Shown: in pieces, positions 25,362 through 36,039 of the stretch | How the letters are laid out: each line of letters starts with the position of its first letter | Numbering within the stretch: position 1 is the stretch's first letter | From: Actinomycetales bacterium | GTDB lineage: Bacteria > Actinomycetota > Actinomycetes > Actinomycetales > Quadrisphaeraceae | DNA length: 40,067 nucleotides | Assembly: GCA_022701985.1 (NCBI GenBank) | Contig: JAKONK010000235.1 | Coordinates: 1-40,067 of the forward strand | Direction of reading: 5' to 3' | Made by a program: the position numbers and the translations under genes | The notes under the pieces: model-generated | What the model was told of the DNA's origin: nothing | The model's input: only the letters and a program-made list of their open reading frames with translations | Databases searched by the model: none

Positions 25362-25365
25362 TCTG

Positions 25366-25439
25366 TCGGGCTGACAGGATTTGAACCTGCGACCCCGTGA
25401 CCCCCAGTCACGTGCGCTACCAAGCTGCGCCACAGCCCG
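25366..25439 (-). tRNA. tRNA-Pro(GGG)
   Basis: The minus strand reads CGGGCTGTGGCGCAGCTTGG and folds into a full cloverleaf. It has acceptor CGGGCTG/CAGCCCG, D-arm GCGC-AGCTTGGTA-GCGC, anticodon arm CGTGA-CTGGGGG-TCACG with anticodon GGG (codons CCC/CCU), and T-arm with GGTTCAAATCC. The discriminator is A and CCA is not encoded. The gene is intact. It follows the integrase stop by 51 bp on the same strand and is followed by the hairpin terminator. Confidence 0.96.
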
Positions 25440-25490: not shown

Positions 25491-26816
25491 TTACAGGCTG
25501 CTGGCACCGGACCCGCGAGCAGGTGACGCCGGCGCCTCGAGCAGCCCGTCCAGGACGGCGACGACCTCTGGTTCAGCGCCCACGGGGCGGACGTACCCGC
25601 GCGTCGAGCGCTCGTCGCGGTGGCCGAGCCGTACCGCGATCTGGTCGACGCTGACACCCGCGCCGTTCAGCCATGACGCGTGGGCGTGCCGGGTCTGGCG
25701 TGGCAGCGGGCGGAAGTCCAAGCCGGCGGTGCGCACCGCCTCGGACCACACCCGCGCCCAACACTGTGGCGTGGTCGCCCCCAGCGGGGGCTCCGCGGGC
25801 AGGGACGGCTCTCCGGCACCGGCCGCCGCCACGAGCCCGGACCTGCGCACCGGTCGTTGCGGTCCGGCGAGGGCCCGGCGAGCGCGAGCCCTGGAGGCGG
25901 AGTACTCGGACACGGCCTGTCGGCAGCACGCCTCGCGGCAGCGACCCGTGGCGTACCCGTTCACGGTGCCGTGCTGGTAGGTGACCCCGTTGGGACCGGT
26001 GAAGGTCCCCAGCTCCTGGAGACGCGCAGCGGTCAAGGGCTCTCGCTGCTGCTTCGACGGGAAGCGCCTGCCTGACGGCGGGGGCAGGACGAGCCGGCTC
26101 GGGAAGAGGAGGTCGGCCACTCCCAGTCCCTGCTCCTCCGCCCACGCCTCGAGCCGCCCTGCGAACTCGTCGCCGACCACGACGCGGCGCGCGGCGCCGT
26201 TCTTGGTCGAGGGACGGATGACGAAGCGCTCTCCGCTCTCAGAGAAGCGGCGTCCGGGTTCGGAGAGGCAGCGAGCGACCAGCAGCGCGCCGTCACCGAG
26301 ATCACCCGCCACGAGCGCGAGGGCCTCACCCAGGCGCAGACCGCTCCGCACGAGCAGCTCGGCGAGCAGGCTGGCCCCCGGGGTGGGCATGGCGGCGCGC
26401 ACGGCGATGAACTCCTGCGGTGTCAGCACCCGGGTGGGTGCAGCGACGGGACGCGGGGTGCGCACGCCGTCCGTCGGCAGCCGGTCGAGCACCCCGCGGG
26501 CCATGGCTCGTCGGCAGGTCACCGCCAGCACCAGCCTGGCCAGGCGGACCACCGACGGACTGCTGCCCGTGGAGCGAGCACCCGCGAGCAGGGCCTCCAC
26601 GTCGTCCGCGGTGAGGTCAGCGACCTGCCGGCCACCCAGCACGGGCTCCACGTGGCAGGCGAAGACGCTCTCGTACAGGGACAGGGTCTTCGGGTCGACC
26701 GCAGCGGTCGCCGCGTACTCCTGCCAGGCACGGCTGAGCGTCATCCCAGGGGTGCCGACGGATCGGCCAGGACCGGACGGGTGTTCGACCACGCTGCTGA
26801 TCATGCCCGCCACCAC
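25491..26816 (-). CDS. Tyrosine recombinase/integrase with internal His-Cys module
   Basis: This 441-residue tyrosine recombinase breaks and rejoins DNA through a covalent Tyr link. A SAM-like N-terminal core-binding domain covers about 25-115 and the catalytic domain 130-420. Visible active-site residues are Arg161 (SGLRLGEAL), Lys205 (STKNGAA), Arg376 (RQTRHAHAS), His399 (RLGHRD) and Tyr408 (RGYVRP). The box II His normally three before Arg376 is Arg373. Residues about 243-350 hold an unusual insertion with YQHGTVNGYATGRC and CCRQA (His282, Cys293, Cys297, Cys298), followed by a basic stretch. The start could be GTG 26816 or ATG 26804. It stands alone between der and tRNA-Pro, with no excisionase or phage genes. 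It is probably acquired and its activity is untested. Confidence 0.88.
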   Translation of the reverse strand: MVAGMISSVVEHPSGPGRSVGTPGMTLSRAWQEYAATAAVDPKTLSLYESVFACHVEPVLGGRQVADLTADDVEALLAGARSTGSSPSVVRLARLVLAVTCRRAMARGVLDRLPTDGVRTPRPVAAPTRVLTPQEFIAVRAAMPTPGASLLAELLVRSGLRLGEALALVAGDLGDGALLVARCLSEPGRRFSESGERFVIRPSTKNGAARRVVVGDEFAGRLEAWAEEQGLGVADLLFPSRLVLPPPSGRRFPSKQQREPLTAARLQELGTFTGPNGVTYQHGTVNGYATGRCREACCRQAVSEYSASRARARRALAGPQRPVRRSGLVAAAGAGEPSLPAEPPLGATTPQCWARVWSEAVRTAGLDFRPLPRQTRHAHASWLNGAGVSVDQIAVRLGHRDERSTRGYVRPVGAEPEVVAVLDGLLEAPASPARGSGASSL

Positions 26817-26849: not shown

Positions 26850-28343
26850 TCAGCGGCGGCGCTTCTCCCGGACCCGCACGCTGACCTCGACCGGGCTGCC
26901 CTCGAAGCCGAACTGCTCGCGCAGGCGCCGCTCGAGGAAGCGGCGGTACTGCGCCTCCAGGAACCCCGAGGCGAAGAGCACGAAGCGCGGGGGCCGCGTG
27001 GAGGCCTGGGTGCCGAACAGGATGCGCGGCTGCTTGCCCCCGCGCAGCGGGTGCGGGTGGGCCTGCACCACGGAGGTGAGGAACTGGTTCAGGCGCCCGG
27101 TGGAGATGCGCTGGTCCCAGCTGTCCAGGGCGACGTCGAGCGCGGGCACGAGGCGGTCGGTGTGCCGGCCGGTGCGCGCGGAGATGTTGACCCGCGGCGC
27201 CCAGGCGACCTGCGCCAGGTCCTGCTCGATCTCGCGCTCCAGGTAGTGGCGGCGCTCCTCGTCGGTCAGGTCCCACTTGTTGAACGCCAGCACCAGGGCG
27301 CGCCCGGACTCCACGACGGTGGTGATGATGCGGGTGTCCTGCTCGGTGAGGCGCTCGGAGGCCTCCAGCAGCACCACGGCCACCTCGGCGCGCTCGAGGG
27401 CGGCCTGGGTGCGCAGCGAGGCGTAGAAGTCGGCGCCGGAGGTCTGGTGCACGCGGCGGCGGATGCCGGCGGTGTCCACGAAGCGCCACGGGCGCCCGCC
27501 CAGCTCGACCAGCTCGTCGACCGGGTCGCGGGTGGTGCCGGCGGTGGGGTCCACGACGACGCGCTCGGACCCGACCAGCTTGTTCAGCAGGCTCGACTTA
27601 CCCACGTTGGGGCGTCCCAGCAGGGCCACGCGGCGGGGACCTCCGGTGACCTCCCGCTCGCCCACCAGCGTCTCGGGGACGGCGGCGAGCATCGCGTCGA
27701 GCAGCTCGCCGGAGCCGCGGCCGTGCAGCGCCGAGACCGGGAACGGCTCGCCCAGGCCGAGGGACCACAGCTGGGCGGCGTCGGCCTCGGTGCGCGCGTC
27801 GTCGACCTTGTTCGCCGCGAGCACCACGGGCTTGCCGGAGCGGCGGATCAGCTTGACGACGGCCTCGTCGGTGGCGGTGGCCCCCACGGAGGCGTCGACG
27901 ACGAAGACGACGACGTCGGCCATCTCGATGGCGATCTCGGCCTGCTCGGCGACGCGGGCGTCGAGGCCGTGGACGTCGACCTCCCAGCCGCCGGTGTCGA
28001 CGACGTTGAACGGGGTCCCCGCCCACTCGGTGGTGTAGGTGACGCGGTCGCGGGTGACGCCGGGGACGTCCTGGACGACCGCCTCGCGGCGGCCCAGCAC
28101 GCGGTTGACCAGCGTCGACTTGCCCACGTTGGGGCGGCCGATGATCGCGATGACGGGCAGGACGGCGCCGTCGTCGTCGCCGTGGGCGCCGTCGGAGGCG
28201 CCCGACAGGACGGCGAGGTCGTCCTCGGAGAGCTCGTAGTCGTCCAGGCCGACGCGCAGGGCGCCGCTGGGGTCCAGCTCGTCGTCGTGGCCGTCGTGGC
28301 CGTCGTGGCCGTCGTGGGTGGTGGTGGTGTCTTCGGCGCTCAT
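26850..28343 (-). CDS. der: Ribosome-assembly GTPase Der (EngA)
   Basis: This 497-residue protein contains two GTPase domains in tandem and a C-terminal KH-like domain, needed for 50S subunit maturation. The first domain has [18 protein letters not shown] and NKVD; the second has [22 protein letters not shown] and NKWD; the end PRFVLFASG...[19 protein letters not shown] is typical. About 60 extra N-terminal residues are acidic and begin with an HDG repeat encoded by 9-bp units. ATG 28343 overlaps the cmk stop as ATGA. It is the last gene of the scp-rluB-cmk-der neighbourhood. Confidence 0.96.
28284..28319. repeat. 9-bp tandem repeat, four units, in der N-terminus
   Basis: Units of gtcgtggcc code His-Asp-Gly repeats ([11 protein letters not shown]) in the N-terminal tail of Der. 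The His/Asp content might bind metal ions, but this is speculative. Confidence 0.88.
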
Positions 28344-35034: not shown

Positions 35035-36039
35035 TCAGCCGAGGGCCCTCGGGTGGGCCGCGGCGTACACCTCGCGCAGGGCCTCGGCGGTGACCATCGT
35101 GTAGATCTGCGTGGTCGTGACGCTGGCGTGGCCGAGCAGCTCCTGGACGACGCGGACGTCGGCGCCGCCCTCCAGCAGGTGGGTGGCGAAGGAGTGGCGC
35201 AGGGTGTGCGGGCTGACGGGGTGCTCGGTGCTGCCGACGCCGGCGCGCTCGGCCGCGGCGCGCAGCACCGCCCAGGCGCTCTGGCGGGAGAGCCGATCTC
35301 CGCGGGTGTTGAGGAACAGCGCGCTGGTGGCGGTGCCGGACGCGGCCCCCTGCACGAGCCCGGGGCGGGAGCGCACCAGGTAGGCCTCCAGGGCCGCGAC
35401 GGCGTAGGAGCCGAGCGGCACCACGCGCTCCTTGCCGCCCTTGCCGCGCAGGCGCAGGAGCGCTCCCTCGGTGCTCTCGCGGCCCAGCGCCTGGGCGGGC
35501 AGGTCGTCGACGTCGAGGCCGACCGCCTCGCTGATGCGGGCACCGGTGCCGTAGAGCACCTCGAGCAGGGCGCGGTCGCGCAGCGGCAGCGGACCCTCAC
35601 CGGTGCCGGCCGCCTCCAGGAGGGCGAGGACGTCGGCGACGGGCACGGCCTTCGGCAGGCGGCGCGGGGTGGAGGGCGGGCGCACCGCGGCGGCCGGGTC
35701 GGCGCTGGTGGCGCCCTCGAGGGCGCTGAAGCGGTGCCAACCGCGGACGGCGACGACGGCGCGGGCGGCCGAGGCCGCGGAGAGCGCGGCGCCCGGCCCC
35801 GGAGCGGGCCCGTACTCACCGGTGCGCAGCGCCTGGAGGTGCGCGCTGACGTCGGCCTCGCCCACGGCGGCCAGCTCGGTGCGGCCCTGGGCGCGCAGCC
35901 AGGCGGTGTAGCGCTCAAGGTCTCGTCGGTAGGCGGCGAGGGTGTTCTCGGCCAGGCCCCGCTCGACCCGCAGGTGCGCCAGGTACTGCCCCAGCGCCCT
36001 GCTCAAGGCGTCGCTGGCCGTGAGCACCTGCACCCCCAC
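35035..36039 (-). CDS. xerD: Site-specific tyrosine recombinase XerD
   Basis: This 334-residue recombinase resolves chromosome dimers at dif. The N-terminal SAM-like domain ([20 protein letters not shown]) is followed by a catalytic domain with Arg in [13 protein letters not shown], Lys in [24 protein letters not shown] (HxxR), [14 protein letters not shown] (His and Tyr). All catalytic residues are present, unlike in the lone integrase at 25491. Its place next to parA-scpAB supports XerD rather than XerC. Two small inserts (about 75-90 and 205-225) make it slightly long. The start is GTG 36039; an in-frame TAG upstream excludes earlier starts. Confidence 0.94.

Follow-up and report, generated by a model that had tools for sequence, protein, structure and literature searches.

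A recombinase gene between der and tRNA-Pro(GGG)

The window, i.e. the whole stretch of 40,067 nucleotides that was analysed, carries on its minus strand a gene for a tyrosine recombinase (hereafter int), which starts about 34 bp after der and is followed by a tRNA-Pro gene on the same strand. The features of this locus are the following:

25365..25439, minus strand: tRNA-Pro(GGG), intact, 51 bp downstream of the stop codon of the recombinase gene
25491..26816, minus strand: tyrosine recombinase gene, 441 aa, GTG start at 26816, alternative ATG at 26744 (residue 25)
25581..25760, minus strand: catalytic domain part 2, residues 353-412, with R373 (position of the box II His), R376, H399 and Y408
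25761..25880, minus strand: variable basic/Pro-Ala linker, residues 313-352
25881..26030, minus strand: embedded, finger-like HGT...Y....C module, residues 263-312 (H282, C293, C297, C298)
26091..26450, minus strand: catalytic domain part 1, residues 123-242, with R161 and K205
26451..26744, minus strand: core-binding (SAM-like) domain, residues 25-122, with weak matches to Pfam Phage_int_M and SAM_3 and matches to 2kkp and lambda Int
26850..28343, minus strand: der (ribosome biogenesis GTPase), the upstream neighbour, above the cut-off of NCBIfam NF002828 and TIGR03594

An earlier note on this DNA had placed a tyrosine recombinase of 441 residues at 25491-26816, and we found its coordinates and residue numbering to be correct. 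The start codon itself is uncertain, the ATG at residue 25 being present in only three of the six orthologues described below. Residues 1-24 were under little constraint (pN 0.25 vs. pS 0.29), and translation may begin at residue 25 rather than at the GTG.

Pfam Phage_integrase (PF00589) matched the protein above the cut-off (E = 1.5e-12) in two pieces situated on either side of an insert, the second piece covering residues 354-410. When the predicted structure was compared with solved structures with the help of Foldseek, the nearest folds were those of lambda Int (E = 3.3e-9) and Tn1549 Int. As judged from its sequence and its model, the protein is a tyrosine recombinase, with a predicted core-binding and catalytic fold, a putative nucleophilic Tyr and conserved catalytic residues. 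It is neither XerC nor XerD, since its scores with TIGR02224 and TIGR02225 were 16.9 and 13.7, for cut-offs of 335 and 330. A separate XerD-type recombinase is encoded at 35035-36039 of the window (above the cut-off of NCBIfam NF001399 and just under that of TIGR02225). The presence of this protein and of further strong recombinase matches in each genome of the genus ruled out that int replaces Xer.

Catalytic residues and Arg373

When 88 recombinases were aligned, R161, K205, R376, H399 and Y408 fell on the catalytic columns, and they were invariant in all six Quadrisphaera proteins. The alignment also confirmed that, as had been noticed from the sequence, an Arg (R373) occupies the position of the box II His while the remaining catalytic residues are in place. 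This Arg is fixed in the six proteins of the genus. Among 36 other recombinases that share the embedded module (see below), 35 retain the His; Arg was found in 1 of the 24 actinobacterial ones and in none of the 12 from viral contigs. The exception, L133 (from genome G124), reads RMRDLRHAHA and appears to result from an independent change.

Previous work has shown that the box II His is variable. SSV1-type integrases have KxxR and pNOB8-type ones YxxR in this box (PMC8371274), while the His is weakly conserved in IntBPP-1 and replaced by Tyr in IntDes (PMC8138268). Cre(H289A) still recombines, with a reduced efficiency, and the reaction of Flp(H305A) goes no further than cleavage (PMC4381057), which indicates that loss of this His can damage some recombinases. 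Because of this variability, we consider, by analogy, that Arg373 is probably a tolerated oddity, and not proof of a new chemistry.

An HGT/Cys module inserted in the catalytic domain

The earlier note had counted about 100 residues too many between the catalytic Lys and Arg, and comparison with other integrases bore this out. In the six Quadrisphaera proteins, i.e. that of the window and its five orthologues, the Lys and the box II Arg are 168-172 residues apart, as compared with 66-104 (median 73) in 43 module-free integrases from viral contigs and 136-159 in the other module-bearing integrases. Thus, the window protein has about 98 residues beyond the usual number between K205 and R376, and the alignment and these spacings led us to reject a frame artefact or chance as the origin of the insert.

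The insert contains the motif HGTVNGY...CREACC, a variant of a pattern that can be written HGT-x3-Y-x4-C-x-C-x2-C and that is followed by a basic helix. H282, G283, T284, Y288, C293 and C298 are at their expected places, with the middle Cys shifted to C297; H282, C293 and C298 are invariant across the aligned module-bearing recombinases. Five of the six Quadrisphaera proteins have CxxxCC instead of CxCxxC (in the window, Glu is found at position 295 and an additional Cys at 297). The orthologue that retains CxCxxC, in genome G001, is the first branch within the clade of the genus. The reading CREACC also occurs in a small phage protein (L322:5207-5257), i.e. the shifted-Cys form exists independently, and as judged from this sequence the variant is therefore probably viable.

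The module was 72-88% identical to that of the window among the orthologues and better conserved than the linkers that flank it. The linker 313-352 was 70% identical to that of the nearest orthologue and only 24-30% identical to those of the four distant ones, while identities of 67-93% were observed for catalytic part 2 (353-412). In the full-length structure model, the module region was predicted with low confidence (pLDDT about 38). Folded in isolation with 83 relatives, it gave a compact model (pLDDT 93.8) comprising a hairpin, a short helix, a Cys turn and a long helix, with the His and the Cys residues in adjoining turns. Since Foldseek retrieved no similar fold among solved structures, zinc and DNA binding are suggested by the residue pattern, i.e. 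the invariant His and Cys, and we take the module to be, most probably, a small knob that is stabilised by zinc and makes an extra contact with DNA.

Occurrence of the module in phages and other integrases

The likeness of the module to small phage-associated proteins, which the earlier note had proposed, was substantiated. Viral contigs, searched with a DNA pattern, contained at least 116 distinct copies, the majority of them in small proteins and outside integrases, and the module was present in PHROGs families 24671, 4234, 23251, 12112 and 14857, among the annotations of which are integrase, HNH endonuclease, HTH and WhiB-like. These viral copies are retrieved by the DNA pattern of the module and not by a full-length recombinase profile: none of the 52 viral-contig relatives that the latter retrieved contained the module. 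When the window protein was compared by tblastn with phage and plasmid sequences, nothing matched at 1e-5. In several viral contigs (L264, L227, L224, L229 and L234), HGT modules occur in close groups of at least two, in some cases within a single protein.

In the class Actinomycetia, the module was found in 21 of 395 genomes, nearly always within a long integrase frame. In total, 24 actinobacterial and 12 viral-contig integrases have it at the equivalent position. The database comparison thus showed that the module is shared, and we rejected the idea that it is unique to the window protein. No Pfam family corresponds to the module, and neither Pfam nor NCBIfam names the lineage of integrases that bear it. 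We found no account of the module inside a recombinase in the literature that we searched, and the lineage appears to be undescribed in the searchable literature. The earlier suggestion of a distinct subfamily is supported as far as the module is concerned; that the Arg and the module define it together is not supported. Several independent gains of the module by recombinases were also considered, and a single origin was not rejected by the AU test (p = 0.56), on a tree the deep branches of which are weak.

When the neighbours of the other module-bearing integrases were read by eye, clear element genes were absent in most cases. Two of these integrases from another genus, L275 and L282 (genomes G201 and G250), have upstream flanks sharing stretches that are about 92% identical, a sequence likeness that hints at a second lone integrase kept by vertical descent.

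Conservation of the locus in Quadrisphaera and its absence in sister genera

The genomic context, which the earlier note had missed, proved to be of greater interest, the integrase standing alone and being fixed genus-wide at the der/tRNA-Pro site. An orthologue was found in each of the five other Quadrisphaera genomes examined, with 54-81% identity to the window protein (81% for L021). The order der-int-tRNA-Pro is the same in all six genomes, and the surrounding cmk, oxidoreductase and TetR genes are also conserved. In six genomes from sister genera, int is absent and tRNA-Pro comes directly after der. What has been inserted is a single gene, with little more DNA than int itself. No other element genes were found near int at this locus, and we found no tRNA-fragment or att-like repeats in the flanks covered (loci of 14-40 kb), nor any conserved inverted repeat or recombinase target site.

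By eye, the end of the recombinase gene touches a conserved TAAGGT box, which is akin to a -10-like box upstream of tRNA-Pro in the sister genera; a scan for promoters and terminators gave nothing. A GC-rich inverted repeat (of the type GGGCGGGTGGCTGC...GCAGCCGCCCGCCC) separates der from int at the orthologous loci L053, L054, L055 and L057. It was not seen in the window and in G004, and in these two transcription from der may continue into int.

The reading frame is intact in all six int genes, while about 15 stop codons would be expected under neutrality in a gene of this length for the nearest pair (dS 0.49). Pairwise dN/dS ratios ranged from 0.25 to 0.52, for synonymous distances of about 0.5-1.3; these ratios, high by the standards of housekeeping genes, are rough because dS is partly saturated for the distant pairs. 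Constraint was strongest in the module and the catalytic end, and residues 1-24 and the linker 313-352 were not conserved. The Quadrisphaera sequences formed one clade (support 100/100), and the int tree was free of conflict with that of der, which resolves a single split (window + G004), also present in the int tree.

The stretch that precedes the core-binding domain measures 25-27 residues in the proteins of the genus vs. 54-106 in their module-bearing relatives. With so few residues, the N-terminal arm-binding domain is missing from the Quadrisphaera proteins. This domain has been tied to mobility by Smyshlyaev et al. 2021 (PMC8138268).

An integrase that has probably outlived its element

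The explanation that we favour, and consider reasonably probable, is that int derives from the integrase of a mobile element, that the element and the arm-binding domain have been lost, and that the host has retained, under selection and presumably to its benefit, what is probably a catalytically competent core recombinase. An integrase of the module-bearing lineage of actinobacteria and phages would have settled in the ancestor of Quadrisphaera and become fixed at the site between der and tRNA-Pro(GGG); the element, its attachment repeats and the N-terminal arm-binding domain would subsequently have disappeared, and int would then have been passed on vertically under purifying selection. In such an enzyme, the recombinase would clamp a pair of half-sites, Y408 would attack the DNA with the assistance of R161, K205, R376 and H399, and strands would be exchanged. 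Arg373 would put a basic residue in place of the box II His, which some recombinases do not strictly need, and the module would touch the DNA at an additional point, perhaps making up in part for the lost arm-binding domain.

Possibly, though this is clearly more doubtful, such a domesticated and competent recombinase, with recognition derived from the module and freed from arm-binding control, now serves a genus-specific rearrangement or resolution of the chromosome.

The main alternative, which we regard as unlikely, is that the protein has turned into a DNA-binding regulator that no longer recombines and that binds close to the 3' end of int and to the tRNA-Pro promoter. Such a role would suit a lone gene with no visible substrate and a replaced box II His, the stop codon of which lies on or near the TAAGGT -10-like box preceding tRNA-Pro, and a precedent exists in MrpR of prophage SPbeta (PMC10516654). 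However, MrpR has lost most catalytic residues, while the Arg, Lys, Arg and His residues and the Tyr are kept in 6 of 6 proteins here.

It is improbable that int is a slowly decaying, functionless relic of an old integrated element. The lack of further element genes and att sites would fit with decay, as would three changes at places where the relatives are conserved, namely Arg373, the shift of the Cys and the absence of the N-terminal region. Against this stand dN/dS values below 1 and a constraint that bears mainly on the module and the catalytic parts, and the conservation of six intact frames over such synonymous distances largely refutes it. It is equally improbable that int is the active integrase of a mobile element, minimal or hidden, that is repeatedly re-acquired at this site: tRNA genes are often integration targets (PMC8371274) and the relatives resemble element integrases with arm-binding domains, but int lies 5' of the tRNA gene and not in its 3' end, with no tRNA repeat and scarcely any inserted DNA beyond the gene, and forms a single monophyletic clade of the genus that has constant neighbours and no conflict with der.

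With int taken as a host-retained integrase, the locus is a clean case of an integrase outliving its element, the site being empty in sister genera and occupied in every genome of the genus sampled. It also shows how a small module that is widespread in phage proteins and has no Pfam family is incorporated in the catalytic domain of one lineage of recombinases. Both the retention of the recombinase by the host and the role of the module are now open to direct testing.

Comparison with known systems

With the integrases of actinobacterial phages and integrative elements that possess an arm-binding domain (IntTn916/pSAM2-like; PMC8138268), the window protein has in common the core-binding and catalytic fold and the catalytic residues. 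It differs from them by the absence of the arm-binding domain, the box II Arg and the lack of an element. The beta insertion of IntTn916 sits between beta strands 2 and 3 (PMC8138268), whereas the module of about 100 residues is located elsewhere.

Outside the genus, sequence similarity is highest (27-31% identity) with the integrases from Actinomycetia and viral contigs that bear the module (L009-L012, L018, L127-L150 and L156-L209), in which the module is at the identical position. Unlike the window protein, these retain the arm-binding region, CxCxxC and, in 35 of 36 cases, the box II His.

The two-domain layout without an arm-binding domain is shared with core-only recombinases such as Xer and Brujita Int (PMC8138268). 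MrpR, the SPbeta repressor with a recombinase fold (PMC10516654), shows that such a fold can take on a new role, but it is devoid of most of the catalytic residues. Finally, the module itself is shared with small phage HGT...CRC..C proteins, one of which (L322) also has CREACC. In phages it stands alone or within proteins annotated as HNH-, HTH- or WhiB-like, while in the window it is found inside a recombinase.
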